This document shows, piece by piece, positions 9,896 to 27,646 of a stretch of DNA of 64,000 nucleotides (within the stretch, counting starts at the first letter, position 1; every line of letters starts with the position of its first letter). Where the stretch lies: the NCBI RefSeq assembly GCF_001005825.1, contig NZ_LBHV01000002.1, positions 682,001 to 746,000 of the forward strand, given 5' to 3'. This DNA is from Rhizobium sp. LC145. Lineage in GTDB: Bacteria > Pseudomonadota > Alphaproteobacteria > Rhizobiales > Rhizobiaceae. Under the pieces are notes generated by a model. That model was not told the DNA's origin, made no database searches, and was given only the letters and a program-made list of their open reading frames with translations. Made by a program: the position numbers and the translations under genes.

Positions 9896-10945
9896 ATGGC
9901 TGATCACCAGATGAAGACGCGCGCCCGCAGAACAATACTGGCCGCGATGGCGGCTTTTGCACCGCTCAGCGCAGCCCCTGCTGCGCAGGCCGAGACCGAC
10001 ATCAAGCTTGTCCTCAATTGGAAATACCAGGGCCCGCAGGGCCTGCTGTTCCTCGCCGAGGACAAGGGTTACTTCAAGGAAGAAGGCTTAAGCGTTACCA
10101 TGGACCAAGGCAACGGTTCCGGCGCAGCGGTTCCACTCGTTGCCAACGGCGCCTATGACATGGGTTTCGGGGATATCAATGCCCTCATCGAACTTGCCGC
10201 CAAGAAGCCTGAAGATGCGCCAGTCGGCATCTTCATGATGTACAATCAGCCCCCCTTCACCATCGCAGTCAAGGCCGACAGCCCGATCAAGTCGCCGAGT
10301 GATTTCCCCGGGCACACATTTGGTGGCGCTGCCAATGATGGCGCACTCAAGCTCTTCCCTGCTCTGTGCTCGATTTCCAAGACCGATTGCTCGAAGGTCG
10401 AAGTAACCAACATGCAGCCGAACTTGCGCGAGCAAATGCTGATGAAGGGCCAAGTCGATGGTGTATTCGGTTACGTCAACACCATCCGCTTCAGCGCTAA
10501 GCTGATCGGTGTCGATCCGGACAAGGAAATCCGCCTTATCAACTACGGCGACTACGGGATGGATCTTTATTCCAACGCCATCATCGTCGCCAAGAGCTTT
10601 GTGAAGGAAAACCCGGAAGCCGTGAAGGGATTTCTGCGCGCGCTCAACAAGAGCATCAAGGACGCCATCAAGGACCCCGATGCGGCCGTCGCGGCGGTAA
10701 AGGCGCGCGAACCGCTGATCAAGACCGACGTGGAGCGCGAACGTTTCGACGCAACGCTGGCCGACGAAATGGCGCATCCCGAAGTCGCCACGATCGGCCT
10801 TGGCGATGTCGATGAAGCACGCCTTGCAAAGTCCATCGACATCCTCGTCCAGGCAAACGGCCTGCCGCGCACGCCATCGGTCAACGAAGTGTTCGACCGC
10901 AGCTTTCTGCCGGCCAAGAGCGAGCTCCTGACCTCAGTCAAATAA
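9896..10945 (+). CDS. NitT/TauT (SsuA/THI5)-type ABC substrate-binding protein
   Basis: A 349-residue periplasmic binding protein, first gene of the LysR-linked operon. The signal peptide has a twin-arginine-like KTRARR start, a hydrophobic run and an APAAQA-E cleavage site. The mature protein has IKLVLNWKYQG, AYDMGFGDINA, MMYNQPPF and NYGDYGMDLYSN blocks and two cysteines (CSISKTDC) absent from the paralogue at 6296. The SDR, cyclic amidase, ATPase and permease follow it on the same strand. It probably captures the operon's substrate, a small ring compound judging by the enzymes encoded downstream. Confidence 0.88.
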   Translation: MADHQMKTRARRTILAAMAAFAPLSAAPAAQAETDIKLVLNWKYQGPQGLLFLAEDKGYFKEEGLSVTMDQGNGSGAAVPLVANGAYDMGFGDINALIELAAKKPEDAPVGIFMMYNQPPFTIAVKADSPIKSPSDFPGHTFGGAANDGALKLFPALCSISKTDCSKVEVTNMQPNLREQMLMKGQVDGVFGYVNTIRFSAKLIGVDPDKEIRLINYGDYGMDLYSNAIIVAKSFVKENPEAVKGFLRALNKSIKDAIKDPDAAVAAVKAREPLIKTDVERERFDATLADEMAHPEVATIGLGDVDEARLAKSIDILVQANGLPRTPSVNEVFDRSFLPAKSELLTSVK

Positions 10946-10947
10946 GA

Positions 10948-10968
10948 AACGGCGCGTAACGCGCCGTT
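10948..10968 (+). terminator. Stem-loop between binding protein and SDR
   Basis: Nine-base perfect arms AACGGCGCG / CGCGCCGTT with loop TAA, starting 3 bases after the stop codon. A C-rich stretch rather than a T run follows, so it is more likely an mRNA-stabilising or partially terminating hairpin than a full terminator. Such hairpins often raise the level of binding protein over downstream genes. Confidence 0.65.
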
Positions 10969-11003
10969 CCCCCTCCCCCAGACGATATGAACGGAACAAC
11001 ATC

Positions 11004-11795
11004 ATGGACTTGATGCTGAAGGATAAGGTCGTATTCATCACCGGCCCGGCAAAGGGCATGGGCGCCGCCATCACCGTTGCCTTCGCTAAGGAAGGCTGCA
11101 AGCTCGCGCTTGTCGGCCGTGATACGGCGGCCATGGAACCGGTGGCCGAAGAGGCTCAGTCCAAAGATTGCTCAGCTGTCGTCATTGGTTGCGATCTGAC
11201 GGATGCCGCACAATGCGACGCAGCTGCCAGCAAGACGGTTGAAACCTTCGGCCGCATCGACGTGCTGGTCAATGTTGCCGGCGGCTCCGGTCCCATGGGC
11301 AAGACCGGTGTCGAAACCACGCCGGAGGAATTCGACGAGATCGTCACACTTAACATGAACGGCTGCTTCCACACGATCCGCTCGGTCCTGCCGGCGATGA
11401 TCGAGAACCGATATGGCAAGATCGTCAATGTCGGCGGCACCTTCGGGATGAAGGGGCGCGCGGGACGTCTCGCCTACTCTGCCTCCAAATGGGGCCTGCG
11501 CGGCATCACCAAGAGCTTTGCGCTGGAAGTCGGACAGCACAATATCAACGTCAACTGCGTTGCCCCAGGCATGGTCGATGGGCCGCGTTTCCGTGACAAG
11601 GTCTGCAGGACCATGGCCCTTAAGCTCGGCATTTCCGAGGAAGAGGCCGCCATCCGCCACGCGGAAGACTACGCGCTGAAGCGCATCACCGTCGATGAGG
11701 ACGTCGCTAGTGCCTGCCTGTTCCTCGCCAGCGACGTCTCGCGCCAAATCACCGGCGTCGATCTGCCCGTCGATGGCGGATGGGCTGCCCTTTAA
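11004..11795 (+). CDS. Short-chain dehydrogenase/reductase (SDR)
   Basis: A 263-residue classical SDR with TGPAKGMG (13-20, dinucleotide binding), NVAGG (90-94), Y158-x3-K162 (YSASK) and a C-terminal PVDGG. The catalytic serine expected 13 residues before the tyrosine is G145 in NVGGTFG, with T146 next to it. This variant is unusual and may alter the reaction. Its place between a binding protein and a dihydroorotase-like enzyme suggests oxidation or reduction of a ring or side-chain hydroxyl or keto group before ring opening. The substrate is unknown. Confidence 0.85.
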   Translation: MDLMLKDKVVFITGPAKGMGAAITVAFAKEGCKLALVGRDTAAMEPVAEEAQSKDCSAVVIGCDLTDAAQCDAAASKTVETFGRIDVLVNVAGGSGPMGKTGVETTPEEFDEIVTLNMNGCFHTIRSVLPAMIENRYGKIVNVGGTFGMKGRAGRLAYSASKWGLRGITKSFALEVGQHNINVNCVAPGMVDGPRFRDKVCRTMALKLGISEEEAAIRHAEDYALKRITVDEDVASACLFLASDVSRQITGVDLPVDGGWAAL

Positions 11796-11807
11796 GGAGA
11801 TTTCAAC

Positions 11808-13241
11808 ATGACCAGCCAGATCATCGCGGACCTCGTCGTCAACGGCGGGACGATCGTCACCCCGGATACGCAATATCAGGCCAGCATCGCCATCAAAGGC
11901 GGCAAGATCCTCGCGATCGGCGATGAAGAAGCCATGCCCGAGGCGAAAGAGAGCCTGGATGCAACAGGCCTCCATATTTTGCCCGGCGCAATCGACGTGC
12001 ATGTTCATTTCCGCGATCCCGGCTATCCGCAGAAGGAAGATTTTGCCAGCGGCACGGCGGCAGCCGCTTTCGGCGGTGTGACCACCGTCTTCGACATGCC
12101 GAACACCCTGCCCGCGGTCGCCGATGCCAGGTCCTTGGCAGAGAAACATGCGCTTGCCGCCGCCAAGGCCCATGTTGATTACGGCCTCTACGCCGTGCTC
12201 GGCGAAGACAGTCTACCCAATATCGCAGCGTTGATCGAAGGCGGCATCATCGGCTTCAAATGCTACATGGGCAATACGTTCGGCCGCATTCCGTCTCCGA
12301 CGACCGGTGCCATGCTCGAACTTTTCGAGATCGTGGCCCCGACCGGCAAACGCATCTCACTGCATGCCGAAACAAACTCGATCATGGAACGCCGTGAGGC
12401 GCGTCTGCGCGCCATGGGCCGCACCGACCCGCTTGCACACCTCGCCGCCCGCCCAGCAATCGTCGCCACCGAAGCCGTAGAACGCGCGGCAACGCTTGCG
12501 GAATGGACCGGAGCCCGCATCCATATCCTGCACATCTCGTCAGCGGCTGAACTTCGGCCTTTGGCGGAGGCCAAGGCCCGGGGTGTCGACATCACCGGCG
12601 AGACCTGCCCCCAATATCTGCTTCTCTCGACCAACGATTACGAGGAAAAGAGCGGCGTCATCCGCGTCAACCCGCCGGTGCGCGAGATCGAGAACCAAGG
12701 CCCTATCTGGCAGGCGCTCGTCGGCGGCACGATCGACATGATCGCCACCGACCATGCTCCCCATTCCGTCGAAGAGAAAACGCGTGAAGATATCTGGACC
12801 GTCGATTGCGGCTTCCCCGGTGTCGAAACACAGATGCCGCTGATGTTGACCGAGGTTGCCCGCCGGCAGGCGAGCCTGTCAGACTACGTTCGCTGGAGTG
12901 CAGAAAGGCCAGCAAAGTGCTGGGGTCTGTACCCGACCAAGGGCGCGCTGATGGTCGGCTCCGACGCAGATCTTGCCATCGTCGATACCAATCGCGAGTG
13001 GACGATCGACGATGCCAAGACCCAATCGACGGCCAAAATCTCGCCATGGCACGGCATGAAGGCCACCGCACTGCCGGTCCATACCATCGTGCGGGGCCGC
13101 TTCGCGATGAAGCACCGTACGCTGCAGAACGAAGCGAAGGGCTGGGGCCGTTCGGTTCATGCGATCCAGCAAATGCCGACACCCGACATCCGTAACGCCG
13201 ACCAGACAATGGCAGCCGTCACTGCTCCCCGGAAGGGTTGA
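11808..13241 (+). CDS. Dihydroorotase-like cyclic amidohydrolase (DHOase/allantoinase family)
   Basis: A 477-residue amidohydrolase. It shows H65-x-H67 with R69 (DVHVHFRDPG), N99 (FDMPNT), the carbamylated lysine K151 (GFKCYMG), H186 and H242 as metal ligands, and D315 (ATDHAPH). HxHxR plus MPN is the dihydroorotase signature: in known DHOases the Arg and Asn hold the substrate carboxylate. D-hydantoinases and many allantoinases differ there. It is about 50 residues longer than typical type I PyrC. It begins 12 bases after the SDR in a transporter operon, so a catabolic role, hydrolysing a dihydro-ring to an N-carbamoyl acid, is more likely than biosynthesis. Confidence 0.85.
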   Translation: MTSQIIADLVVNGGTIVTPDTQYQASIAIKGGKILAIGDEEAMPEAKESLDATGLHILPGAIDVHVHFRDPGYPQKEDFASGTAAAAFGGVTTVFDMPNTLPAVADARSLAEKHALAAAKAHVDYGLYAVLGEDSLPNIAALIEGGIIGFKCYMGNTFGRIPSPTTGAMLELFEIVAPTGKRISLHAETNSIMERREARLRAMGRTDPLAHLAARPAIVATEAVERAATLAEWTGARIHILHISSAAELRPLAEAKARGVDITGETCPQYLLLSTNDYEEKSGVIRVNPPVREIENQGPIWQALVGGTIDMIATDHAPHSVEEKTREDIWTVDCGFPGVETQMPLMLTEVARRQASLSDYVRWSAERPAKCWGLYPTKGALMVGSDADLAIVDTNREWTIDDAKTQSTAKISPWHGMKATALPVHTIVRGRFAMKHRTLQNEAKGWGRSVHAIQQMPTPDIRNADQTMAAVTAPRKG

Positions 13242-13246
13242 TCGCC

Positions 13247-14086
13247 ATGAACCAAGCTCTCGCGACTGGGGTCGCGCCCCGTAATCCTGTGATCGATCTG
13301 GAACGAGTAAACGTCACCTTTGGGGGCGAAAAGAACAAAACGGTGGCCCTGGCGGAGACGTCGCTGCGGATTGAGAAGGGGGAGTTCGTCGCCTTGGTCG
13401 GGCCATCCGGCTGCGGCAAGTCGACGATCCTGAAGCTCGTAGCCGGCACGCTCTCGCCGTCCGAAGGCCACATCTTCGTCACCGGGCGAGAGATCGGTGC
13501 CAACGAGGTGCGGATCGGCATGGCGTTCCAGAATCCGACCCTGCTGCCGTGGCTCAACATCCGCGACAACGTGATGATGCCGCTGAAGATCGTTCCGCCC
13601 TTCAAGCATGGCTATGCGAAGAAAAAGAAGGGCGAGTACCGGGAACGCGCTGAGGCGCTTCTCGCCAAGGTCGGGCTGTCCGGTTTCGGTGAAAAATTCC
13701 CCTGGCAGCTCTCAGGCGGCATGCAGCAGCGCGCCTCCCTATGCCGCGCACTGATCCACGATCCGACCCTGCTCCTGCTTGATGAACCATTCGGCGCGCT
13801 CGATCAGTTTACCCGCGAGGAACTCTGGGAAATCATGCAGAATCTCTGGATCGAGAAGAAGCCGACAGTTCTCCTGGTGACCCATGACCTCAAGGAGGCA
13901 GCCTACCTTGCCTCGCGTATTTGCGTCATGCAGGCGCGGCCGGGACGCATCATAGAAGACAGTACCGTGCCTTTCGCCCGGCCACGTACAATCGATGTGT
14001 CCTTCGAACCCGATTTCGTTTCCCTCACGCAGAGGCTCCGCGAGCGCATCGTCGCGGTCCGAGCCGTCAAGGAGCAACAGCCATGA
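13247..14086 (+). CDS. ABC transporter ATP-binding protein, NitT/TauT (SsuB-like) type
   Basis: A 279-residue single ATPase with Walker A GPSGCGKST, Q-loop FQNPTLLPW, signature LSGGMQQRA, Walker B LLLLDEPFGALD and the H-loop LLVTHDLKEA. The ATG at 13247 has GGAAGGG 9-15 bases upstream; the in-frame TTG at 13238 sits over the previous stop and is rejected. It overlaps the permease start by ATGA. It energises uptake for the binding protein at 9896 and possibly also for the orphan binding protein at 6296. Confidence 0.9.
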   Translation: MNQALATGVAPRNPVIDLERVNVTFGGEKNKTVALAETSLRIEKGEFVALVGPSGCGKSTILKLVAGTLSPSEGHIFVTGREIGANEVRIGMAFQNPTLLPWLNIRDNVMMPLKIVPPFKHGYAKKKKGEYRERAEALLAKVGLSGFGEKFPWQLSGGMQQRASLCRALIHDPTLLLLDEPFGALDQFTREELWEIMQNLWIEKKPTVLLVTHDLKEAAYLASRICVMQARPGRIIEDSTVPFARPRTIDVSFEPDFVSLTQRLRERIVAVRAVKEQQP

Positions 14087-14859
14087 AGCCGGACACCAGA
14101 CGCCGCGTTCTCTCCGCCTGCTGCATTCTCGGCTCCTTCGTTGCCTGGGAAGCCATCTGCCTTGCATTCGGCGTTTCGGATATGGTTCTGCCAAGGCCGA
14201 CGCAAGCGGTCTACACGCTGGTCTCGCAGTTTCCCGCGATCTGGCCGCACGCGTTCCAGACCATTTATACGACTTTGGTCGGGCTGGGGCTCGGCATCTT
14301 GATCGGTGTCCTTCTCGGCATGTTGATCGGCTCCTCGAGGCTTGCCTATGACGTCGCCTATCCAATGTTGGTCGGCTTTTCCTCGATCCCCAAGGTCGCC
14401 ATCGTGCCGATTCTCGTGCTCTGGTTTGGCGCTGGAACGGTACCGGCCATTCTCACGGCGATGGTCATGTGTGTCTTCCCGATCGTGGTCAACGTCGCAA
14501 CAGGGCTTGCTTCGACGGAGCCCGAACTACAGGATGTCATGCGAACGCTGAAGGCCACGAAGCTCGAGATCCTCTGGAATATCGGCCTGCCGCGGACGAT
14601 GCCTTATTTCTTCGCATCGCTTAAGGTCGCCGCGACCCTCGCCTTCGTCGGCACGGTCATTGCCGAAACAGTCGCCTCGAACCGGGGCATCGGCAACCTG
14701 ATGATGATTGCGAGCTCCAGTTTCGACGTGCCGCTCGTCTTTGCCGGACTGTTCATTCTCGCCGGCCTCGGCGTCACCCTCTACATCGTATTCTCCGCCA
14801 TCGAAGCCCGCGTGACCGGCTGGGCAGTGCGCAGCGACGATTTCGTCTCCAACGGCTGA
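14083..14859 (+). CDS. ABC transporter permease, NitT/TauT type
   Basis: A 258-residue inner-membrane protein with about six hydrophobic segments. The coupling EAA loop is visible around ELQDVMRTLKATKLEILWNIGLPRTMPY. The sequence MVLPRPTQAVYTL near the N-terminus is typical of SsuC/TauC permeases. The ATG at 14083 overlaps the ATPase stop, showing translational coupling. With the ATPase and binding protein it completes one importer. Confidence 0.9.
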   Translation: MKPDTRRRVLSACCILGSFVAWEAICLAFGVSDMVLPRPTQAVYTLVSQFPAIWPHAFQTIYTTLVGLGLGILIGVLLGMLIGSSRLAYDVAYPMLVGFSSIPKVAIVPILVLWFGAGTVPAILTAMVMCVFPIVVNVATGLASTEPELQDVMRTLKATKLEILWNIGLPRTMPYFFASLKVAATLAFVGTVIAETVASNRGIGNLMMIASSSFDVPLVFAGLFILAGLGVTLYIVFSAIEARVTGWAVRSDDFVSNG

Positions 14860-17495: not shown

Positions 17496-18689
17496 CTAGA
17501 ATGAGGTTTGTACCTGCAACCCAAGATGTGAGGCGGTCAAGTGCGCGATCGCGGCAAAGGGAATAATGCCTAGCGATTGTCCAATTATTCCTGGACCGGT
17601 TGCCAGCACAGGTACACGCTCGCGGGTGTGATCGGTTCCCGCCCAAGTCGGGTCGTTGCCGTGATCGGCGGTGATGATCAACAGGTCTCCCTCACGCAGC
17701 CGCCTCGTCAGCTCCGGCAGGCGGGCGTCAAAAGTTTCGAGCGCGCGAGCATATCCGGAAACGTTGCGGCGGTGGCCCCACAAGCTGTCGAATTCGATGA
17801 AATTCGCAAAGACGAGATCGCCCGCGGCGGCTTTTTGGGTCCAGTCAAGAACATGGTCAAAAAGTGCCATATCGTCCTTGCCCTTGGAAACGTCGGTAAT
17901 GCTCTTCATCGCGAAGATATCGCCGATCTTTCCCACGGCATGGACCGCTCCGCCAGCTTCGACAACCCGGTCGCAGATCGTCCCGTCCGGGGGCGAAATG
18001 GCGAAATCCTTGCGGTTGGCGGTGCGGGTGAACCCGCCCGGTGCCTCACCGACAAAAGGCCGGGCGATGATGCGCCCGACGTTCAACGGATGAAAGATCT
18101 CGGCGGCGATGCGGCAGGTGTCCAGTAGCCGGTCGAGCCCGTAATGGGTCTCGTGCGCAGCGATCTGTACGACGCTGTCGGCCGACGTATAGACGATCGG
18201 CTTGCCGGTCGCGATATGCTCCAGACCGAAAGCATCGATGATCTCCGTGCCGGAGGCGTGATTGTTGGCAAGCGTGCCGGAAAGACCAGCCCGTGAAACC
18301 AGTTCCGCCATCGGTTTGGCCGGGAAAGCCGGAACGGTGCGCGGAAAATAATGCCAGTCACGTTCCACCGGAGCGCCCGCAAGCTCCCAATGGCCGGACT
18401 GGGTGTCCTTGCCAGCAGAGATTTCCTGAGCCGCGCCATAACGACCGGAGGCAACGGCCGAGAGACCCGGTGCAACCATACCCGACGCAAGAGTGATCGC
18501 CGCGCCCAGGCCAAGCGCATCCATGTGAGGCACCTTGAGCGGTCCGCTTCTGCCGGTCTCGGCGCGACCTTCGGCGCAAGCTTGCGCGATGTGCAAGAGA
18601 GTATTCGCCCCCTCATCGCCATAGTGAGAGGCATCGGGTGCGCCGCCGCAGCCGACGGAATCGAGAACGCACAGGAAGACGCGTGCCAT
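17496..18689 (-). CDS. deoB: Phosphopentomutase
   Basis: Interconverts ribose 1-phosphate (or deoxyribose 1-phosphate) and ribose 5-phosphate. The 397-residue length matches DeoB. Alkaline-phosphatase-fold metal sites are seen in [15 protein letters not shown] at the N-terminus, DTQSGHWE (phosphoacceptor Thr), ADHGNDPTW and [10 protein letters not shown]. It is the last gene of the minus-strand operon and receives ribose 1-phosphate from the nucleoside phosphorylase encoded upstream. This links the importer of that operon to nucleosides. Confidence 0.94.
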
Positions 18690-18697
18690 GACCTATC

Positions 18698-19441
18698 TCA
18701 CGAAAGCTGAAACCGGCCGAGCGAACGCCGGCGGATCAACTCGATGACCTCGTAGAAAGCCCAGCCGATCAATGACAGCAGGATGACCATGCCGATGACA
18801 ACCGAAGTATCGCTGTTTTCCTGACCCGAAGACAGAAGATAGCCAATGCCTTGGTTGGCGCCGATCAGTTCGCCGATGACAGCGGCGGTCATGGCAAGCG
18901 TTGTGGCAACTGCCATGCCGGCGAGCACCGAAGGTAGCGCGGACGGCAGTTCGATATGGGCGAAGCGCTGCCATGAGCTGAGCTTCAGTACTGCTGCAAG
19001 GTCGCGGAAACTGCCCTCGCCGTAGCGCAGGCCCGTCACCATACCGGCCATAACCGGGAAGAAGGTAACGATTGCGATCAGTACGATCTTCGGCATCGGC
19101 CCAATGCCGAGCCACAGAAGCAGAAGCGGTGCAATCGCGATCTTCGGGGCAGTCTGCAGAAGCAGGATGAGCGGCGTGGCAAAGCGTTCGATGCGGGGGA
19201 AGCGCGCGAAGACAACACCGGCGACAATACCGGCGATGGTCCCGGACGCGAAGCCCGCGATGATCTCCGACAAGGTCACCCAGACATGCTGTGTAAGATC
19301 GGCGTTCTTGAACAGGAAAACGACGCGGTCGAACACTTCAATGGGGCCCGGCAAGAGATATGCCGGGACGTCGAAGATGAAGACGATCGCCGTCCAAAGG
19401 ACGAAGGTCGCGATCAGACCCGCTATGCCACGCAAGATCAT
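18698..19441 (-). CDS. ABC transporter permease, NitT/TauT type
   Basis: A 247-residue membrane protein with about six transmembrane stretches, the YLLPGPIEVFDRV N-terminal motif and an EAA-type loop (GSFRDLAAVLKLSSWQRFAHIELPSALPSVL). It ends 8 bases before deoB and starts 3 bases after the binding protein stop. A second permease of the same type (21234-21998) lies in the same operon, so the importer may be a heterodimeric channel. Confidence 0.9.
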   Translation of the reverse strand: MILRGIAGLIATFVLWTAIVFIFDVPAYLLPGPIEVFDRVVFLFKNADLTQHVWVTLSEIIAGFASGTIAGIVAGVVFARFPRIERFATPLILLLQTAPKIAIAPLLLLWLGIGPMPKIVLIAIVTFFPVMAGMVTGLRYGEGSFRDLAAVLKLSSWQRFAHIELPSALPSVLAGMAVATTLAMTAAVIGELIGANQGIGYLLSSGQENSDTSVVIGMVILLSLIGWAFYEVIELIRRRSLGRFQLS

Positions 19442-19444: not shown

Positions 19445-20449
19445 TTATTGACCTATCGTGGACGGGTCGACGACGAAGTCCGCAGCCTGCGGCGCGGCGT
19501 CGATCACCTTGTACTGCGCCAGAATATCGGCATTCTTCTGCCAACCGGCGATATCCGCAGCACCGAGGCCCTTCTCCCTGGTCAAAGCACTCTGCCAAAC
19601 GGAGGGTACGAAAGTCTGCTCGAAGGCGGTGGTGAGGATCGACTTCTGGTCCTTCGGCCAGGTCGGAGCATAATTCTCGAGCGCGATGTCCAACGCTTCG
19701 GACACGTGGCCGTCGATAACCCACTCATAGGACTGGGTTATGGCGGTGGTGAAGCGCTTGACGACGTCGGCGTCTTCCGCAAGCTTGGCCTCGCTGGTGA
19801 CGACGACATTGCCGAAGGACGGCAGAAAGTCGTTCGACAGGATCATCGTGACCTTCGTGCCGTCGGCCTCGAGGTTGTACTTGCGCAATTCGGAGAAGAC
19901 GATCGCATCGACCTGATCGGCCTGCAGGGACTGGATGATCGCACCGGTGGCAACGACTTCGACATTGACGTCGTCGATCGTCAGGCCCGCCTGCTGCAAG
20001 CCAACCTGTAGTTGGAGATAATTCGGGCTAGCCAGGCTGGTAACGGCGACCTTCTTGCCCTTCAGGTCGGCATAGGTCTTGATGCCGCTCGATTCCTTGG
20101 CCAACAGCGCGCCGATCCCACGCTGGTAGGTCGTGTGAACCACCTTCACCGGCAGCCCGTTAGCGGCTGCGGCAACCACGGCGTCACCGTTCGGGAAACC
20201 GAAATCGACATTGCCGGCGGCAATGTTGGTCAGGATGTCGGCGGCTGCGGCATAGATGAATTCGACCTCGATGCCGTTCTTTTCAAAAATGCCCTGTTCG
20301 ACGCCGGCATAAAGCGGCGCGTAGAACGGCGCGGCGGCGCCGTCGATCTGCAGGATCACCTTGTCGGCTGCTTCGGCAGTCATGGCGTAGAACGGCGACA
20401 TCAGCAGAGCGGCAAGGCTTGCTGCCGTGGAAACGCGGAACTTGAACAT
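19445..20449 (-). CDS. SsuA/THI5-type ABC substrate-binding protein (nucleoside/pyrimidine candidate)
   Basis: A 334-residue periplasmic protein with signal peptide MFKFRVSTAASLAALL...AEA and the family opening ILQIDGAAAPFYAPLYAGVEQGIFEKNGIEVEF. I prefer ATG at 20449 with AGGGGA about 9 bases upstream; ATG at 20473 overlaps the phosphorylase stop and is possible. The family includes THI5-like proteins that bind pyrimidine compounds. Its position between a nucleoside phosphorylase and deoB makes a nucleoside or pyrimidine base the likely ligand. Confidence 0.87.
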   Translation of the reverse strand: MFKFRVSTAASLAALLMSPFYAMTAEAADKVILQIDGAAAPFYAPLYAGVEQGIFEKNGIEVEFIYAAAADILTNIAAGNVDFGFPNGDAVVAAAANGLPVKVVHTTYQRGIGALLAKESSGIKTYADLKGKKVAVTSLASPNYLQLQVGLQQAGLTIDDVNVEVVATGAIIQSLQADQVDAIVFSELRKYNLEADGTKVTMILSNDFLPSFGNVVVTSEAKLAEDADVVKRFTTAITQSYEWVIDGHVSEALDIALENYAPTWPKDQKSILTTAFEQTFVPSVWQSALTREKGLGAADIAGWQKNADILAQYKVIDAAPQAADFVVDPSTIGQ

Positions 20450-20469
20450 TGTTTTGATCCCCTGATTGT

Positions 20470-21237
20470 TCATTGTTTCGAGAAGGCACGTCCTGCAATG
20501 CGCAGGAGATTTCGTTGGGTGGCGTCGTAATCGTCGAGCCACTCATCCGTGGCGCGATTTCCGTGAATTCCAAGCAAGCAGCCGGTTTCGAGCCCGATGG
20601 CGCTCCCGACCGTCATGATGATCTCGCTTTCCATCTCCACGCCGATCGCGCCCTGAGCCTGGAAACGGCCGATGAACCCGGCGGCCAGATCCCGGCCGTC
20701 ATCGAGCGGACGATAACGGCGATCCTGGCCGAAATAATAGCTGTCCGTGGAGGCGACCATACCTGTACGGCAGGTAAGCCCGAGATCGGCCGCAGCATTG
20801 ACTAGTCCTGCCACGATCGCAGGCGAAGCCTTTGCGCCGCCGCCGGCTGCGCGATAGGTACGCGCCGTACCGGTATCGCCGATGGCGCGGTCGACGGCGA
20901 CGAACGATCCAGTCGCATAGCCCGCCACCAGCGCCGACATGCCGCCGATGCGAACAACGCGCTTTGCGCCGAGCATAGCAAGCTCGACCAGCGCTATCTC
21001 GGTCGATGGTCCACCAATGCCGGTGGAGCAGATCGTCAGCCGCTGTCCTTCGTACGTGCCGGTGATGATCGCGAATTCGCGCTTGCGGCCGAAATCCGTC
21101 ACATCCTCTAGCATATCGGCAAGCAGGCTCACGCGATCGGGATCGCCGGGCGTCAGGACGTTCTCGGCGATATCGCCCGGACCACAAGGCAGATGTGGTG
21201 GACGGCCGTTCTTCCAGGGGAACGCTGCGCTCGTCAC
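20470..21237 (-). CDS. Nucleoside phosphorylase, uridine phosphorylase-like
   Basis: A 255-residue member of the PNP/UDP family: GDPDRV phosphate loop, STGIGGPSTEIALVEL, the ribose-binding GVEMESEI and a preceding strand with RIGGMSALV. It starts at GTG 21237, which overlaps the stop of the upstream permease (GTGA). It cleaves a nucleoside with phosphate to a base and ribose 1-phosphate, which DeoB then isomerises. UDP-like length and motifs favour a pyrimidine nucleoside, but the exact base cannot be fixed by eye. Confidence 0.87.
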   Translation of the reverse strand: MTSAAFPWKNGRPPHLPCGPGDIAENVLTPGDPDRVSLLADMLEDVTDFGRKREFAIITGTYEGQRLTICSTGIGGPSTEIALVELAMLGAKRVVRIGGMSALVAGYATGSFVAVDRAIGDTGTARTYRAAGGGAKASPAIVAGLVNAAADLGLTCRTGMVASTDSYYFGQDRRYRPLDDGRDLAAGFIGRFQAQGAIGVEMESEIIMTVGSAIGLETGCLLGIHGNRATDEWLDDYDATQRNLLRIAGRAFSKQ

Positions 21238-21998
21238 CGCTTGGCTCCCTTCCACGAGAGAAGCCGGTTTTCCAGCAGGGTCAGGACGACATGCATGAGG
21301 AGACCGAGCACGGCCGTCAGCAGGACGGCGGCAAATAGAAGCGGCGTCTTGTAGGTCGCACCGGCAAAGGTCATCAGGTAGCCGAGGCCGAGCTTGCCGG
21401 CCATCCATTCGGCCAGAACCGCGCCGACCAGCGCCTGAACAGCACCGATCTTCAGGCCGACGAAGATTTCAGGCATGGCGGACGGCAGCTCGATCTGGCG
21501 GAAGCGCTGGATATTGCCCAAGCCGAGAAGCTTTGAAAGATCCTTCATCTTGGGATCGAGCGTGCGGAAGCCGGCCACCGCGCCGATGAAGACCGGAAAG
21601 AACACCAACGAAAAGATCAGGATGATCTTCGACAGGATGCCGAAGCCGAACCAAACGACGAAAAGTGGCGCCAGCGCGATCTTCGGTGCGGTCTGCAGGA
21701 TGACGAGGGGCCCGTCGAGCCAGATGGCAAGTTTCGGAAAGCGCGTCATCACATAGGCGAGCGCGATGCCGGCAACAAGGCCGAAAATCAGGCCCAGCAC
21801 GATGTTCTGCATGGTGAAGCCGAGATGCAGCCAGAGCTCGCCGCTCATGGCAATGCCCGCAAGCGCATTCCAGGTGCGCGCCGGCGACGGCAGAAGATAA
21901 GTCGGCATCGCCATCGGACCGGTGGCGAACCACCAGGCGCCGAGAAGCACGGCAAGCGCCAGCGCATAATCGATCCAAGCGGTGACGCGCTTGATCAT
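21234..21998 (-). CDS. ABC transporter permease, NitT/TauT type
   Basis: A 254-residue inner-membrane permease with six hydrophobic segments, PTYLLPSPARTWNAL near the N-terminus and the EAA-like loop KMKDLSKLLGLGNIQRFRQIELPSAMPEIF. It overlaps the ATPase stop upstream by one base and the phosphorylase GTG downstream by four. It pairs with the permease at 18698-19441 in the same importer. Confidence 0.9.
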   Translation of the reverse strand: MIKRVTAWIDYALALAVLLGAWWFATGPMAMPTYLLPSPARTWNALAGIAMSGELWLHLGFTMQNIVLGLIFGLVAGIALAYVMTRFPKLAIWLDGPLVILQTAPKIALAPLFVVWFGFGILSKIILIFSLVFFPVFIGAVAGFRTLDPKMKDLSKLLGLGNIQRFRQIELPSAMPEIFVGLKIGAVQALVGAVLAEWMAGKLGLGYLMTFAGATYKTPLLFAAVLLTAVLGLLMHVVLTLLENRLLSWKGAKR

Positions 21999-22762
21999 CA
22001 GTGCGTCCCCTCATCGGAACCGCCCGACGTACGCAGATCGCGGCGAAGCTGGGCAACGAGTGCGTGATAGGCCATATCGAGCTTGGTTTCCTCGCCGCGC
22101 GGACGGGCAAGATCGACGTCGTGAACGCATTTCAGCTTGCCGGGGCGTGCGGTCATCACCATGACGCGGTCTGCAAGATAGGCTGCCTCCTCGACGCTAT
22201 GGGTGACGAGCAGGATCGTCTTGCCGGTCGACTGCCAGATACGCAGCAGTTCGTCGTTGAGTGTGTCGCGGGTCAGAAGGTCGACGGCAGAGAAGGGCTC
22301 GTCCATTAGCAGGATCGGCGGATCGTCCGACAGCGAGCGGGCGATGGCCGCGCGCTGGCGCATACCGCCGGAAAGCTGGCGCGGCAAGGCCTTTTCGAAG
22401 CCGGCAAGGCCGACCATTTTGATCAGGTCGAGAGCAGTCCTATCGGCCTCGGCGCGGGATACGCCGGCGGTATCGAGCGGGAAGCGAACGTTTTCGAGGA
22501 CCGTCTTCCACGGCAGGAGCACCGGCTCCTGAAAGACGAAGCCGACGGGGCGCTTGCGGCCGGCGGTATCGAGCGTGATCGTGCCGCCGCTGGCATGGTC
22601 GAGACCGGAAATGAGTCGCAGAAGTGTCGACTTGCCACAGCCAGACGGACCGACGATCGATATGAATTCGCCTTCCTTGATGGTGATGGTCACCGGCTCC
22701 AATGCCGTTACCGTTCCGTGGTCAGCGACGAATGTCTTGTGAACACCCGCAATATCGATCAT
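21998..22762 (-). CDS. ABC transporter ATP-binding protein, NitT/TauT type
   Basis: A 254-residue ATPase with Walker A GPSGCGKST, Q-loop FQEPVLLPW, signature LSGGMRQRA, Walker B ILLMDEPFSAVD and H-loop LLVTHSVEEA. I start it at ATG 22762 (reverse strand), giving the normal family N-terminus MIDIAGVHKTF; an in-frame GTG about 18 bases upstream is possible. It is the first gene of the minus-strand nucleoside operon; an operator-like inverted repeat lies about 140 bases upstream. Confidence 0.9.
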   Translation of the reverse strand: MIDIAGVHKTFVADHGTVTALEPVTITIKEGEFISIVGPSGCGKSTLLRLISGLDHASGGTITLDTAGRKRPVGFVFQEPVLLPWKTVLENVRFPLDTAGVSRAEADRTALDLIKMVGLAGFEKALPRQLSGGMRQRAAIARSLSDDPPILLMDEPFSAVDLLTRDTLNDELLRIWQSTGKTILLVTHSVEEAAYLADRVMVMTARPGKLKCVHDVDLARPRGEETKLDMAYHALVAQLRRDLRTSGGSDEGTH

Positions 22763-22900
22763 CCGCTCAGACTGTGCCACCCAAAAACTCCGTACGTAAG
22801 AAACGGGAATGCAACGCGGTCTTGAAGGCTCCGCCTCTCGCACCACCAGTCTCCCCGGGAAGGCCGCAAGCTTTCACAAAATATCCGCCCACGCAACCGA

Positions 22901-22918
22901 ATTCTCAAAGTTGAGATT
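22901..22918. promoter_or_regulatory. Candidate XRE operator, copy A
   Basis: ATTCTCA-AAGT-TGAGATT, an inverted repeat (one mismatch in the outer bases), in the 184-base gap between the XRE gene's stop and the start of the importer ATPase. The same pattern with perfect arms recurs at 23941 on the other side of the XRE gene. Likely the site by which the XRE protein controls the nucleoside operon. Confidence 0.6.
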
Positions 22919-22946
22919 TGTGTCAAAAAAGAATACAACTGAAATT

Positions 22947-23852
22947 CTAATGTGAGGATCGGCCAGCCCCACGGTGTAAAACGTTCTCTTCGATGAAGTC
23001 CGCCGCCTGATCGCCCTTGAGGCTGCGGCGCCAGAGTTGGTCGGTCACGCTGCCGTAAAGCTGTACGGCTTCGGCCGCCGCGGTGATGGTGGCGACGCCG
23101 ACGCGGATATTGGCGAACGAGCCGAGCCGGAAGGGACTGACGGCGACCTGCGCACGGTCGGCCCGCTTGAACACCTGAAAACTCGCACCCGGCATGGAAT
23201 CGATCACGACGCCGATCTGCACGCCGATCGGCTGCTCGCGCAGCATGCGGACGATATTGCGGATTTCTTCATGTGCCGCCGCCTGCCGCTCCATCAGATC
23301 GACACCGGGCGGATTATGGGCACCGACGAAGCCGACGCGGCCGAAGTCTTCGAGCTCGGCAGCCGAAACGAGGCTGACGATACTAGGACTGCGACGGCGA
23401 AAGGTTTCCTTGCGCGTCTTGAGGATTTCAATCAACGCGCCGATTTCGCGAATGGCCACCGCGCGGTCTCTGACATCCTGCGGGATGCTCTCGTCAAGGA
23501 TCTTCGGCAGCAGTTCATCGTAGCGATCGGTGGTGAGCAGGTAGGAGATCGGCCCGAACATGACAGTGATCTGATCGACATCCTCTTCCATCTGCCGCAT
23601 GCGCTCGAAGAAGCTGATGGCCGACGCGATATATTCCACCCCGACGCCGAGCAGCGTCGGCAGCGAGACGCCTAAGAGATCGGCGATCTTGCCGAGCGTA
23701 TCGACCTTCGGCGGCTTGCCGGATTCGTAGCGGTAAATGGCCGCGCGCGAGACGCCAGCCTTAATTGCCAGCTCTTCCGGGGTGAGCCCCGCGCCCATAC
23801 GGAAAGCGCGGAGACGACGCCCAACATCCTCAGTGGAACTTACAAAGTCCAA
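22947..23852 (-). CDS. XRE-family transcriptional regulator with large C-terminal sensor region
   Basis: A 301-residue protein with an N-terminal HTH (about residues 8-65: LRAFRMGAGLTPEELAIKAGVSRAAIYRYESGK) and a long C-terminal region of unrecognised fold, probably a ligand sensor. It sits between the nucleoside-import operon (same strand, downstream) and the PyrK/PyrD/carbamoylase operon (divergent). Paired inverted repeats flank it. I infer that it coordinates both operons in response to a pyrimidine or its product. Confidence 0.85.
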   Translation of the reverse strand: MDFVSSTEDVGRRLRAFRMGAGLTPEELAIKAGVSRAAIYRYESGKPPKVDTLGKIADLLGVSLPTLLGVGVEYIASAISFFERMRQMEEDVDQITVMFGPISYLLTTDRYDELLPKILDESIPQDVRDRAVAIREIGALIEILKTRKETFRRRSPSIVSLVSAAELEDFGRVGFVGAHNPPGVDLMERQAAAHEEIRNIVRMLREQPIGVQIGVVIDSMPGASFQVFKRADRAQVAVSPFRLGSFANIRVGVATITAAAEAVQLYGSVTDQLWRRSLKGDQAADFIEENVLHRGAGRSSH

Positions 23853-23940
23853 GGCTCTTCCCCTGTTGGCTGACGATAAATCTTCGAATCCCTAAACAAA
23901 ACCGCGACAATTCGCAATGAAGATGTTGCTGGCGGCGAAA

Positions 23941-23958
23941 ATTCTCATTTTTGAGAAT
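23941..23958. promoter_or_regulatory. Candidate XRE operator, copy B
   Basis: Perfect inverted repeat ATTCTCA-TTTT-TGAGAAT, 89 bases upstream of the XRE start and 232 bases upstream of the chosen PyrK-like start. It lies directly before a TTGACA element at 23963, so a bound regulator could block or recruit polymerase. Spacing (7-4-7) equals copy A at 22901. Confidence 0.65.
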
Positions 23959-23962
23959 AATC

Positions 23963-23991
23963 TTGACAGTATCCATATTTTCAAAATAGGC
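23963..23991 (+). promoter_or_regulatory. Candidate promoter of the PyrK/PyrD operon
   Basis: TTGACA (23963-23968) with a 17-base gap to AATAGG (23986-23991). The -35 is perfect; the -10 is weak, as is common for alphaproteobacterial promoters. It lies 5 bases downstream of the candidate XRE operator. A start near 23998 would leave a ~190-base leader before the chosen reading frame. Confidence 0.4.
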
Positions 23992-24189
23992 TCTGTTTTT
24001 GAACGCAGGGAGAGCCCTATGACGTCCGATCGCCCTTTCGCCCGACGCTGACTTTCAGCAACCGGCCGCATGCGATGACGGACACGCGTTAGTCGTCGCC
24101 AGCCCTTTTCCAAGACCGACATGAGCCTCGCCTGGCGGCCAAACCGCTGCGGGGATCGCTTTTTTCATTTCTCTCTTCCGGAAACTCTC

Positions 24190-25044
24190 ATGCCAGCCAG
24201 TCCCTGTGTCGTTCCCGATACCACATCCGCCCCCCTCACTTTGGGGCGCCAGCGCTCCATCCATGAGGTTGAGGCACGCATCAAAAGCCATGACTGGGTC
24301 AACGGCCAGTACCGCCTGATAGTGCTTGCCGCGCCCGACACGGTACTTGATTGCCGACCGGGCCAATTTTTCCATCTTCTGTGCCCGCAGACGGATCGCT
24401 TCCAGCCCTATTTCCGCCGGCCGATGAGCATCTATTCCTATGATCGCGAAAAGGGCGAGCTTGCCTTTCTCTACAAGGTTGCAGGCGCCGGCACCAGCGC
24501 GATGGCCGAGTTGGAAACAGGCGACACGCTGAATATCGTCGGGCCAATCGGACAGGCTTTCGAAATCAAACCGGAATGGCAGCGCCCACTGCTTCTTGCC
24601 CGTGGCGTCGGGCTGGCAACGCTTGCGCCACTGGCCAGGGAATGCGCGAGCCTCGGTCGGTCGCTGACGGTGATCTGCAGCGCCCGGTCCCCAGAGCTTC
24701 TCATGTCGACCGAACTTTTTCGCCACTATGGCGCGGAGGTCATCACCGTCACCGATGCAGAGGGCAATTCCGGTGTCGAGAGCCTGACGGGTCTGATCGA
24801 GGGATTGATCGCAAGCCGCGGCATCGACGCCTTCTTCACGTGCGGCTCGGCCCGCCTGACGCGCATGCTGCAGGATATCGGCAGCCGCCACGGAATTGGC
24901 GGACAGGTGGCGCTGGAACAGCACATGGCCTGCGGCATTGGCATGTGCCATGCCTGCGTGTGGCCCTTCCGGCGCGCCGATGGCGCGGTCAACCTGCGCG
25001 TCTGCCGCGAGGGCCCGGTCTTCGATCTGCAGGAGGCAATGTGA
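24190..25044 (+). CDS. Dihydroorotate dehydrogenase electron-transfer subunit-like (PyrK) flavo-iron-sulfur reductase
   Basis: A 284-residue ferredoxin-reductase-type protein with the PyrK layout: FAD-binding barrel (RRPMSIYS at 77-83), NAD-binding domain (GVGLATLAPLA at 139-149) and a C-terminal [2Fe-2S] site C248-x4-C253-x2-C256-x15-C272. It would pass electrons between NAD(H) and the flavin of the PyrD-like subunit encoded next (ATGA overlap). I chose ATG 24190, with CCGGAA upstream, over ATG 24121, which has no visible ribosome site. PyrK partners are typical of Gram-positive bacteria and uncommon in proteobacterial pyrimidine synthesis, which suggests a special catabolic use here. Confidence 0.85.
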   Translation: MPASPCVVPDTTSAPLTLGRQRSIHEVEARIKSHDWVNGQYRLIVLAAPDTVLDCRPGQFFHLLCPQTDRFQPYFRRPMSIYSYDREKGELAFLYKVAGAGTSAMAELETGDTLNIVGPIGQAFEIKPEWQRPLLLARGVGLATLAPLARECASLGRSLTVICSARSPELLMSTELFRHYGAEVITVTDAEGNSGVESLTGLIEGLIASRGIDAFFTCGSARLTRMLQDIGSRHGIGGQVALEQHMACGIGMCHACVWPFRRADGAVNLRVCREGPVFDLQEAM

Positions 25045-25979
25045 TGGCCGACCTTTCCACCCGGGTCGGCGCGCTGACCCTGAAGAACCCGATCATGCCA
25101 GCGTCCGGCACATTTTCAGAGGAACTCGCCGACGTCTTCGACCTCGATTGCCTCGGCGCGCATGTGACGAAGACGATCACCCGCGAAAGGCGCTCCGGCA
25201 ATCCGGTCCCGCGCGTCTGCGAACTCAATGGCGCGATGCTGAATTCGATCGGCATTCCCAGCAAGGGCGCCGGCTGGTTCGTAAAGAACACCATCCCCTT
25301 CTATGCCGATTACGATGCGCCGCTGGTCATCAGCATCTCGGCCAGCACGGCGGACGACTTTGCCCGCTTTGCCGAAGAGGTGAGCGTGCCAGGCGTGGCG
25401 GCAATCGAGGTCAACATTTCCTGCCCGAATATCGAGGATCACGGGAAGGCTTTTGCCATGCGACCCGGCTCGACCGAGGACGTCATCAGGAAAATTCGCT
25501 CCGCCACAGACGTGCCGATCTGGGCAAAGCTGTCCCCCAATACCGGGGAAGTTGTGGAAGTGGCGCAGGCCTCAGAAACGGCAGGCGCCGACGCGCTGGT
25601 GACGGCGAACACGATGCTCGCCATGGCAATCGACAGCCGCAGCGGCGAAATCCGCCTCGGAAACGTCATGGGCGGGCTCTCCGGCCCTGCGCTGAAGCCG
25701 ATCACACTGCGCATGACCTATCAATGCGCAAAGGCCGTTGCCATTCCGGTGATCGGCTGCGGCGGCATTTCCACCATCGATGACGTCATCGAATACCTGA
25801 TGGCCGGCGCACGCGCCGTGCAGGTGGGCACCGCCACATTCATCAGCCCCAACACCATGCCGCGCCTTGTCGGCGAGCTGGACGCAACGCTTGCCGCCCG
25901 TGGGCTTGCCTCCGTCGAGGCATTGATCGGCACGGCGAGGCTCAGCGGCGAAACGACCACCCTTGCGGAGTATACCTGA
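25044..25979 (+). CDS. Class 1B dihydroorotate dehydrogenase-like flavoprotein (PyrD)
   Basis: A 311-residue FMN TIM-barrel. Class 1 features are the catalytic Cys C127 in VNISCPN, the lysine in HVTKTIT, the orotate-contacting loop MLNSIG, and NTMLAMAID plus NVMGGLSGPALKPI of class 1B. There is no added ferredoxin domain, so it is not a PreA/DPD-type dihydropyrimidine dehydrogenase by architecture. Conserved orotate contacts favour orotate/dihydroorotate, though uracil/dihydrouracil is an alternative because of the neighbouring nucleoside genes. With an NADH-linked partner subunit it could run in the reductive direction, as in the classical clostridial orotate fermentation. It overlaps the carbamoylase start by one base. 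Confidence 0.87.
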   Translation: MADLSTRVGALTLKNPIMPASGTFSEELADVFDLDCLGAHVTKTITRERRSGNPVPRVCELNGAMLNSIGIPSKGAGWFVKNTIPFYADYDAPLVISISASTADDFARFAEEVSVPGVAAIEVNISCPNIEDHGKAFAMRPGSTEDVIRKIRSATDVPIWAKLSPNTGEVVEVAQASETAGADALVTANTMLAMAIDSRSGEIRLGNVMGGLSGPALKPITLRMTYQCAKAVAIPVIGCGGISTIDDVIEYLMAGARAVQVGTATFISPNTMPRLVGELDATLAARGLASVEALIGTARLSGETTTLAEYT

Positions 25980-27646
25980 TGTCCGTTGCCGTTCTGAAGA
26001 CGACTGAGACCTACGACCTGACCGGCGAGGCCGCACGCCTGTTTGCGGAGATCGCAGCCTGTACCGCAGATGTCGAAGGCGTCAGCCGACCGGCCTTTTC
26101 CGCAATCGAAACGAAAACGCTGGAGTTCCTGATCGATTTTGCCCACTCGGAAGGCCTGGTGGCGGAATGGGATGCCGGCCGCAACGTCGTCTTTTCGCTG
26201 CCGGAACACCGGACGGCCGAGCGCTATGTGCTGATCGGCTCGCATGTCGACAGCGTGCCGCGCGGCGGCAATTTCGACGGGCTGGCCGGTATCCTCTCCG
26301 GCCTTCTCTGCCTTGCGCGCGCACGGCGGCAAAGCGTTCACTTCCCTGAGCCGGTAAAAGTCATAGCCATGCGCGGCGAGGAAAGCGCCTGGTTCGGCCC
26401 CTGCTATATCGGCTCCAAGGCACTACTCGGTGCTCTTTCGGCCGATGAACTTGCCGCACAGCATCGGGTGGATGGCCGCAGCCTCGACGTACATATGGAA
26501 GCGATTGGCATCGATATGGCGCCGATCCGGGCCGGCAAGCCGCTTCTCGACGGAGCAAGCGTCAGCGCCTATCTCGAAGTGCATATCGAACAGGGCCCAG
26601 TCCTCGTCGAGCGCCAGCTGCCGGCGGCGATCGTCTCCGGCATCCGCGGCAATTTCCGCTATAGGAAGATAGCCTGCCATGGCGAAGCCGGCCATTCGGG
26701 CGCCGTTCCCCTCGCCTACCGACACGACCCGGTGCTGGCAATGGTAGAGCTTTTGAATGTGCTCGATGCCGCCTGGCACGATTTCGTCGCTAAGGGGCGC
26801 GACCTTGTCGTCACCAGCGGCATGGTCTCGACCGACCAGCAGAAACACGCGCTGTCGCGGATTCCCGACAGTGTCGAGTTCAGCCTCGATATCCGCAGCC
26901 AGGACAGCGAGATGCTCGAGTCGATGCATGCGCTGGTTCTCTCCAACGTCGCCCGCATAGAGCGTGAACGTGCAGTCCGGTTTGATCTCGGCACGGCACT
27001 GTGGACGAGCCCGGCGCCCTGCGACGAGACGCTGATCGGCATGCTCGGCGAAGCATCACAGGCAGTCGGCAATCCGTTCACGCAAATCCCCTCGGGCGGC
27101 GGGCATGATGCCGCCGTCTTCTCCAAAGCGGGGATTCCCTCCGCGATGATCTTCATCCGCAATCGCAACGGCTCTCACAATCCGGACGAGGCGATGGAGA
27201 TCGCCGACTTTGGCATCGCGACCGACATCCTCTACCATTTGCTGGTCGACTTCGCTGAAGCCGCTGTCAGGGCGAAACCGTCAAATCAGACAGGAAAGGC
27301 GAACGTTTCCATGTTCCGCAGGATTACCGACATCATCCGCGCGAAGGGCAATGGCGCTCGTGCCTATCACGCCGCTGCTGCCGCCGCCCGACAGGCCGCG
27401 CTTGCCGAACCGCAGCGCGCCGCCGGCTATTTCATTCTTGCTGCAGCCGCACAGGAATTCGGTGACATGCACTACGGCGAGGCGTCGCACGGTGACATTT
27501 TCGGATTGGAACTCAAGCGGTTCGACGCGTATGTCAAACTACTGGATGAGGCATTCGAAGACATTGATGTCGAGCAGCAACTGAAAGCTGTGTCCACCAT
27601 CGCCACAAGTTTGATTAGCAACAAGATGGCTGACCGGCAGCCCTGA
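25979..27646 (+). CDS. N-carbamoyl amino acid amidohydrolase (AllC/HyuC/beta-ureidopropionase-like) with C-terminal extension
   Basis: A 555-residue protein. Residues 1-432 are an M20-family carbamoylase with metal ligands H89 (GSHVDS), D100 (NFDG), E134/E135 (RGEES), H202 (VHIEQGP) and H400 (GSHNPDEA). Such enzymes hydrolyse N-carbamoyl amino acids or allantoate to amino acid, ammonia and carbon dioxide. Relatives end near residue 415-430; here another ~120 mostly helical residues follow (from MFRRITDII) which I do not recognise. Placed after PyrK/PyrD-like genes, N-carbamoyl-aspartate (ureidosuccinase activity) or N-carbamoyl-beta-alanine are the best substrate guesses. Confidence 0.85.
   Translation: MSVAVLKTTETYDLTGEAARLFAEIAACTADVEGVSRPAFSAIETKTLEFLIDFAHSEGLVAEWDAGRNVVFSLPEHRTAERYVLIGSHVDSVPRGGNFDGLAGILSGLLCLARARRQSVHFPEPVKVIAMRGEESAWFGPCYIGSKALLGALSADELAAQHRVDGRSLDVHMEAIGIDMAPIRAGKPLLDGASVSAYLEVHIEQGPVLVERQLPAAIVSGIRGNFRYRKIACHGEAGHSGAVPLAYRHDPVLAMVELLNVLDAAWHDFVAKGRDLVVTSGMVSTDQQKHALSRIPDSVEFSLDIRSQDSEMLESMHALVLSNVARIERERAVRFDLGTALWTSPAPCDETLIGMLGEASQAVGNPFTQIPSGGGHDAAVFSKAGIPSAMIFIRNRNGSHNPDEAMEIADFGIATDILYHLLVDFAEAAVRAKPSNQTGKANVSMFRRITDIIRAKGNGARAYHAAAAAARQAALAEPQRAAGYFILAAAAQEFGDMHYGEASHGDIFGLELKRFDAYVKLLDEAFEDIDVEQQLKAVSTIATSLISNKMADRQP

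Follow-up and report, generated by a model that had tools for sequence, protein, structure and literature searches.

A 64,000-nt stretch of the genome of Rhizobium sp. LC145 (G000:C12:682001-746000, hereafter the window), a soil bacterium related to Rhizobium with a genome of 5.88 Mb, carries between positions 9896 and 27646 a set of genes resembling pyrimidine biosynthesis genes. From left to right, the interval holds operon A (9896-14859, plus strand), the FmdA, HD and HbpS genes (15343-17420), a minus-strand operon (17496-23852) and a plus-strand PyrK-PyrD-carbamoylase set (24121-27646). The original prediction read the whole interval as one catabolic system for orotate or pyrimidine nucleosides. 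Profile searches and motifs confirmed that all of the genes it named are present, but conservation and a shared operator divide the interval into two systems, 9896-14859 and 17496-27646. The second is probably a regulated orotate-catabolic module that would import a nucleoside, split it and convert orotate to aspartate. Scans with Rfam at the gathering thresholds and for tRNA genes gave no match.

The PyrD-like protein exceeded the cut-offs of NF005574 (331.5 bits, cut-off 269) and TIGR01037 (293.7 bits, cut-off 270), placing it in class 1B, and its best relatives in the PDB were the PyrD subunits of dihydroorotate dehydrogenase B (DHODB; 5UE9, 5KSW and 1EP1), presumably from L. lactis. The PyrD query sequence began at 25038, two codons ahead of the ATG at 25044. 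Near full-length alignment to 1EP1 (223 bits) showed that the Lys in the KTIT/KATT stretch, LNSIG (for LNAIG), NISCPN, KLSPN and the NT pair were kept, motifs which we take to contact orotate or flavin mononucleotide (FMN) or to hold the catalytic Cys. Where PyrD has the LNxIG loop, the genome's own PreA, on contig C30, has NNIEL; PyrD missed the threshold of the PreA model NF006183 (116.7 of 335 bits), which that PreA matched with 737.5 bits. The four [2Fe-2S] cysteines of the PyrK-like protein, for which a later ATG at 24190 is a possible alternative start, aligned with those of DHODB PyrK in 1EP1/1EP3. PyrK and PyrD, and likewise PyrD and the carbamoylase, overlap in TGATG, where the final base of one gene's stop codon opens the next gene's start codon, which suggests that the three genes share a single transcript. 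The predicted coupling of a PyrK-like and a class 1B PyrD-like protein to a carbamoylase was thereby borne out.

Divergent from these genes, the minus-strand operon encodes a regulator, ATP-binding cassette (ABC) transporter genes, a nucleoside phosphorylase and DeoB (Table 1). The structure model of the regulator was poor, with a mean predicted local distance difference test score (pLDDT) of 47. Among the PDB relatives of the substrate-binding protein are 3IX1, which binds a pyrimidine, and THI5/THI13; the protein belongs to one of two NMT1-type ABC systems in the interval 9896-27646. The phosphorylase, DeoB and ABC genes were thus found as predicted; that the ABC system would import a nucleoside is a reading of their context.

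Table 1 Features of the proposed module and the dihydroorotase-like gene of operon A, in window positions
Feature	Positions	Strand	Basis or remark
PyrK-like FAD/[2Fe-2S] NADH reductase	24121..25044	+	PF10418 52.1 bits, cut-off 23.9; Cys pattern versus PDB 1EP3
Class 1B PyrD-like protein, proposed NADH:orotate reductase	25044..25979	+	NF005574 and TIGR01037 above cut-off; aligned to PDB 1EP1
M20 carbamoylase, candidate N-carbamoyl-L-aspartate amidohydrolase, with C-terminal helical extension	25979..27646	+	TIGR01879; M20-fold model
C-terminal domain of about 110 residues	27311..27643	+	Separate small protein elsewhere, mostly beside PyrE or carbamoylase
Operator TTCTCATTTTTGAGAA, between regulator and PyrK	23942..23957	.	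Exact palindrome copy at 23943-23956
Operator TTCTCAAAGTTGAGAT, before ABC/phosphorylase operon	22902..22917	.	Exact palindrome copy at 22903-22916
XRE-type regulator, divergent to PyrK	22947..23852	-	HTH_31/HTH_3 above cut-off
ABC ATPase	21998..22846	-	PF00005; true ATG probably downstream, near 22765
ABC permease	21234..21998	-	PF00528
Nucleoside phosphorylase, uridine phosphorylase group, G94/Y162/H220, candidate orotidine phosphorylase	about 20470..21237	-	PF01048
NMT1/THI5-type substrate-binding protein	19445..20542	-	PF09084
ABC permease	18698..19441	-	PF00528
DeoB phosphopentomutase (ribose-1-P to ribose-5-P)	17496..18689	-	NF003766 485 bits, cut-off 256
Dihydroorotase-like enzyme	11808..13241	+	TIGR00857 324.8 bits, cut-off 279

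Each half of the module is preceded by the palindrome TCTCA-N4-TGAGA. These two sites were the only exact copies in the whole genome, where the reversed control gave 0, and the only sites in the window with at most one mismatch; sites with up to three mismatches were no more frequent there than chance (23 found, 17.8 expected). Both overlap promoter-like sites in a weak scan. We then compared 30 regulator-side promoter regions from related loci, left from 35 extracted once the near-duplicates L054, L055, L064 and two L065 regions were dropped; loci without a regulator beside the divergent gene contribute no region. The palindrome, which occurred in 26 of the 30 (none of 29 permuted half-sites occurred in any), was located at TRAP (tripartite ATP-independent periplasmic) transporter, PyrK and ABC promoters (regulator/PyrK, 13/13; regulator/TRAP, 12/15; regulator/ABC, 1/2). 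Every region lacking an exact copy (L059, the second region of L063, L066 and L086) had a one-mismatch site, and in L087, where the two modules are arranged differently, each carries its own exact palindrome. The genome-wide scan found no exact copy at the genome's uracil genes. Conservation thus supports the operator, which the XRE regulator presumably binds to control both operons.

Orthologues of PyrD (at least 60% identity) were found in 19 of 198 other sampled genomes of the family, and a species collection, whose search may leave out records very near the window, gave 36 named PyrD loci, five of them distant. The nearest named relative in that collection was Rhizobium sp. LCM 4573 (L074), with a PyrD 96% identical. 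Leaving out duplicates of named records (L054, L055 and L064) and the distant matches (L105-L109), 47 non-duplicate loci were retained (16 of the 19 family-genome loci and 31 of the 36 named ones, the window uncounted). They were fetched with up to about 10 kb on each side, and presence was counted within the fetched stretch; because many of these loci are close relatives, the counts are not independent, which lessens the support they lend to an orotate pathway.

PyrK was present in 47/47 loci, kin of the XRE regulator in 36/47 and a carbamoylase of at least 40% identity in 43/47, with a 30-31% homologue in three Bacilli loci. A DctPQM-type TRAP transporter accompanied 26/47 and the phosphorylase 20/47 (both in 4/47, neither in 5/47), while DeoB was found in 13/47. 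PyrC occurred in 19/47, PyrE in 21/47 and one or both in 24/47, and the TRAP-type loci recurrently displayed, in whole or part, the order regulator, then TRAP-PyrK-PyrD-carbamoylase-PyrC-PyrE. Since dihydroorotate and orotate are the substrates of PyrC and PyrE, orotate is most likely the metabolite that the cluster handles; a TRAP partner fits this substrate, because DctP-type TRAP systems usually import organic acids. In the PyrD tree the window falls in a phosphorylase-type clade nested among TRAP-type loci, and phosphorylase-bearing loci appear at several separate places. The three Bacilli loci are assembled differently: genes for a carbamoylase, PyrK, PyrD and a dihydroorotase-like enzyme follow a PucR-type regulator, which Pfam identified in L099 and which has a similar-looking counterpart, judged by eye, in L100 and L101. 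L100 additionally carries a phosphorylase. A locus in Leclercia (Enterobacteriaceae; L103 9220-14346) contains relatives of PyrK, PyrD, the carbamoylase and PyrC; its matches to the regulator and to some other genes are fragmented, and it is possibly a case of transfer and decay.

Enzymes for pyrimidine synthesis lie elsewhere in the genome. Contig C23 encodes a class 2 PyrD (379.5 bits, cut-off 200), a type II PyrC (C23:446957; 405.9 bits, cut-off 293) and PyrE (C23:449407; 109.5 bits, cut-off 106.8), so that, judged by sequence, the PyrKD module is surplus to biosynthesis. The possibility raised in the original prediction, that no other pyrC or pyrD would be found and that these would be the biosynthetic copies, did not hold, and we rejected it. 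Contig C30 carries a PreT-like protein, PreA (cut-off 335 bits for the score given above), a carbamoylase and a dihydropyrimidinase (TIGR02033 above cut-off); the PreT-like protein was assigned by position, no curated cut-off being reached among the matches listed. By its gene content this locus is the classical uracil route, so uracil would already be served. A further PyrC-like protein at C1:693983 (L004) is without the HxH metal motif and lies, by eye, beside a protein like aspartate carbamoyltransferase; it presumably resembles the inactive PyrC' partners.

We next considered the specificity of the phosphorylase, which missed the cut-off of the uridine phosphorylase equivalog TIGR01718 (148 of 280.3 bits). 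Aligned with E. coli Udp, it keeps Gln166 and Arg168, which we take to be uracil-binding residues, as we likewise assume the roles of Arg30, Arg48 and Arg91 in Udp. Eleven PyrKD-linked phosphorylases were aligned, namely that of the window and ten chosen from the 20 phosphorylase loci; 11/11 keep Udp Arg30, Arg48, Arg91, Gln166, Arg168, Met197, Glu198 and Arg223, and 11/11, among them a Bacilli enzyme with 31% identity, have Gly94, Tyr162 and His220 where E. coli Udp and four PDB uridine phosphorylases have Thr94, Phe162 and Ile220 instead. A search of 385 genomes of the class, with context viewed for eight other genomes with a match at E <=1e-20, supplied 11 unlinked homologues (L168-L178, from 8 genomes). 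In ten of these 11, position 94 is Thr or Ser, position 162 is Phe and position 220 is not His; these ten are weak controls, because 0/10 keep both Gln166 and Arg168. Position 220 presumably forms part of the base-pocket wall close to C5/C6, and His220 combined with a less bulky residue at 94 would accommodate the 6-carboxylate of orotidine. The enzyme is thus a candidate orotidine phosphorylase; we know of no gene for this activity.

The carbamoylase scored 250 bits against TIGR01879 (cut-off 204), and its structure model has the M20 carbamoylase fold (best match 3N5F; overall mean pLDDT 79.6). Positions that we take to be metal ligands in M20 carbamoylases were retained in the alignment. We compared 18 alphaproteobacterial-type cluster carbamoylases, those of the window and 17 chosen loci, and three Bacilli enzymes besides. 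R223, N225, R227 and R294 were fixed in 18/18, whereas the corresponding residues are Q, L, W and V in the genome's own PydC, V, I, R and V in a second carbamoylase in L095, and A, P, R and V or I in the Bacilli enzymes, which are thus without R223, N225 and R294. The extra arginines would fit a substrate with a second carboxylate, and gene context makes the enzyme a candidate ureidosuccinase (N-carbamoyl-L-aspartate amidohydrolase). To our knowledge, there is no earlier gene-level candidate for ureidosuccinase.

In the model, residues 447-552 of the carbamoylase make up a helical region distinct from the rest. The same domain is free-standing at several other loci, as a protein of about 105-112 residues that mostly follows the carbamoylase or PyrE (free-standing or fused copies include L059:13100-13438, L102:12915-13232 and L056:6104-6442), and several free-standing ones share a YDDQPL motif. 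The domain had nothing convincing in Pfam, NCBIfam or the PDB, and the best 50 matches of a structure search with the carbamoylase model were carbamoylases or other M20-type hydrolases, none evidently matching it. The fusion, and the positions of the free-standing copies, suggest a joint action with the carbamoylase.

Operon A comprises an NMT1 binding protein, a short-chain dehydrogenase, the dihydroorotase-like enzyme and ABC genes, with a LysR gene (8856-9962) divergent from it. The enzyme has the signature predicted for it (HVHFRDPG, MPN, the Lys in GFKCYMG, and TDHAPH), and residues that we take to be the Arg, Asn and His substrate contacts of dihydroorotases are present; it fell below every dihydroorotase equivalog cut-off among the best 25 of 60 families. 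Its orthologues (at least 53% identity, E <=1e-100) occur in 2/198 other family genomes, neither with the PyrKD set, and no operator copy closer than three mismatches lies beside it. Operon A is part of a block (6284-14859) of LysR, two NMT1 proteins (the second at 6284), the short-chain dehydrogenase, the dihydroorotase-like enzyme, a TRZ/ATZ-type hydrolase (7194) and ABC genes, and this block is conserved in a genome that is without PyrKD (G079; L151). In G131 (L152 8996-10432, 11951-12832), a 53%-identical dihydroorotase-like gene lies next to a transporter that looks by eye like the major facilitator superfamily and to a reading frame that resembles the XRE regulator at 44%; no PyrKD was found in the fetched stretch. 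Further upstream in the window, positions 452-6026 encode a cyanuric acid amidohydrolase (NF052395, 543 bits, cut-off 360), an ABC ATPase and an allophanate hydrolase (TIGR02713 above cut-off), by homology a cyanurate-type nitrogen cluster. Because these hydrolases lie upstream, a role in heterocycle nitrogen is likelier for operon A.

We therefore propose, as the likely reading, that 17496-27646 is an orotate-catabolic module working as follows. The ABC importer would bring in a pyrimidine nucleoside, most likely orotidine, which the phosphorylase would split with phosphate into orotate and ribose-1-phosphate; DeoB, going by its family, would convert the latter to ribose-5-phosphate. PyrK would pass electrons from NADH via flavin adenine dinucleotide (FAD) and its [2Fe-2S] cluster to PyrD, which, from family, residues and context, would reduce orotate to L-dihydroorotate, the reverse of biosynthesis. 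Ring opening to N-carbamoyl-L-aspartate would fall to the genome's ordinary PyrC, which can do this because the dihydroorotase reaction is reversible, and the M20 carbamoylase would release L-aspartate, CO2 and NH3. Both operons would be controlled by the XRE regulator through the palindrome. PyrD2 is quinone-linked, and neither its step nor that of aspartate carbamoyltransferase is usable for breakdown; the module would supply these two steps, which the cell's own enzymes cannot run in that direction. The dedicated orotate system that had been predicted from PyrD/PyrK and the carbamoylase is supported by context and by being surplus to biosynthesis. More tentatively, and with some doubt, an orotidine phosphorylase with its own ABC importer, the ureidosuccinase candidate and its small helical partner may define an orotidine/orotate-to-aspartate regulon across alphaproteobacteria, the counterpart in Bacilli having been put together independently.

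Several observations weigh against this proposal. PyrK scores below the curated PyrK equivalogs (best, NF000797, 125.6 of 270 bits) and is assigned as PyrK-like only. The window variant has neither PyrC nor PyrE in the cluster, PyrC lying elsewhere in the genome; L096 gave no carbamoylase match; and some loci, among them L088, L089, L091, L096, L097 and the Bacilli loci, had no operator even with one mismatch. The identity of the nucleoside is read from residues and context only. In addition, G326 (L168), whose phosphorylase is 56% identical, combines the linked signature with the same importer and has no PyrKD orthologue in its genome, although it could use orotate through PyrE.

It is conceivable, if rather doubtful, that the orotate half is right and that the phosphorylase and importer serve uridine or its kin, with uracil passing to the PreA route and the regulator sensing pyrimidines generally. 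The enzyme does belong to the uridine phosphorylase group and keeps Gln166 and Arg168, and no other uridine-phosphorylase-like gene was seen in the genome, whose other three PF01048 matches are one on C23 that by eye resembles a purine nucleoside phosphorylase and is without Gln166/Arg168, and two weaker ones that were not looked at further. The importer and phosphorylase of G326 occur without PyrKD, the ten signature-less homologues are weak controls, and the canonical comparison comprises E. coli Udp and four PDB sequences. Orotidine is favoured by the missed TIGR01718 cut-off, by Gly94/Tyr162/His220 in every linked enzyme compared with Thr/Phe/Ile in those canonical sequences, and by operators that tie the phosphorylase to PyrKD and have no exact copy at the uracil genes. 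A wider departure, a non-orthologous reductive pathway for uracil or thymine (Pyd-like), had been named as the main alternative, and the succession of reductase and carbamoylase has indeed the shape of Pyd. We consider it improbable and set it aside given the PyrC and PyrE partners in related clusters, the missed PreA model, the orotate-type active-site loop of PyrD and the separate PreA-type/PydB/PydC locus in the same genome.

That the dihydroorotase-like enzyme and its transporter operon belong to the same pathway, as ring opener, is unlikely in our view. Adjacency, its Arg, Asn and His residues and its TIGR00857 score speak for it, as does the arrangement in L074, where the module has as neighbours the genes for FmdA and HD and, at the edge of the stretch, the 23 C-terminal residues of the operon-A permease, so that a loose link between the two systems may exist; a dihydroorotase-like gene also lies in the stretch of 5/47 loci, in the PyrKD operon in Bacilli L099-L101 and nearby in L094 and L095. 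We left it out of the module because operon A is conserved without PyrKD, its orthologues in the sampled family genomes do not accompany PyrKD and it has no operator; the cyanuric-acid genes upstream point the same way. Very improbable is an accessory biosynthetic dihydroorotate dehydrogenase for pyrimidine synthesis at low oxygen. Class 1B enzymes are biosynthetic in lactic bacteria, and in six genomes (one of them 76% complete) no full-length type II PyrC was found besides the one in the cluster, which may for that reason serve biosynthesis there, a further point against a purely catabolic cluster; yet hydrolysis by the carbamoylase would use up the precursor, the genome has PyrD2, and the partners are importers and a phosphorylase.

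Clostridial orotate degradation, through an NADH-dependent orotate reductase, dihydroorotase and ureidosuccinase, is classical enzymology that is decades old. The chemistry proposed here is the same, from orotate through dihydroorotate and N-carbamoyl-aspartate to aspartate; the differences are the alphaproteobacterial host, the nucleoside front end, the proposed genes, regulator, operator and importer, and a dihydroorotase outside the window's cluster. With DHODB (PDB 1EP1-1EP3) the module shares a two-protein FMN and FAD/[2Fe-2S] enzyme with its active-site motifs kept, but its PyrKD is proposed to work reductively, amid import and hydrolysis rather than synthesis. The PreT-PreA/PydB/PydC route follows the same logic of reducing the ring, opening it and removing the carbamoyl group, whereas the module is a separate locus in the same genome with another reductase family and another proposed substrate. 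The phosphorylase resembles E. coli Udp in family and in the five Arg and Gln residues (Arg30/48/91, Gln166/Arg168) and departs from it at Thr94 to Gly, Phe162 to Tyr and Ile220 to His, besides scoring under TIGR01718. Fold and metal-ligand positions link the carbamoylase to L-N-carbamoylases and beta-ureidopropionases (M20; PDB 3N5F, 8C46); it is set apart by the helical C-terminal domain and by R223, N225 and R294, which are missing from PydC and the Bacilli enzymes compared (R227 being shared with the Bacilli ones).

Among the titles and abstracts listed as matches in the open literature, subscription journals lying outside it, we found no gene-level account of orotate catabolism, which is weak evidence of absence. 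PMC7332683 concerns uracil reduction and PMC10041152 does not concern orotate use. Bacteria do release orotate: E. coli is reported to excrete it, a pyrE mutant reaching at most 1.82 mM (PMC10087573).

These results provide candidate genes for the whole route of orotate breakdown, known mainly from old enzyme work, together with a predicted operator, specific residues that may give a nucleoside phosphorylase a new specificity, and a small protein domain fused to a carbamoylase. With this module, the bacterium probably takes in an orotate-bearing nucleoside and degrades orotate, normally a building block of RNA, to aspartate and ammonia.

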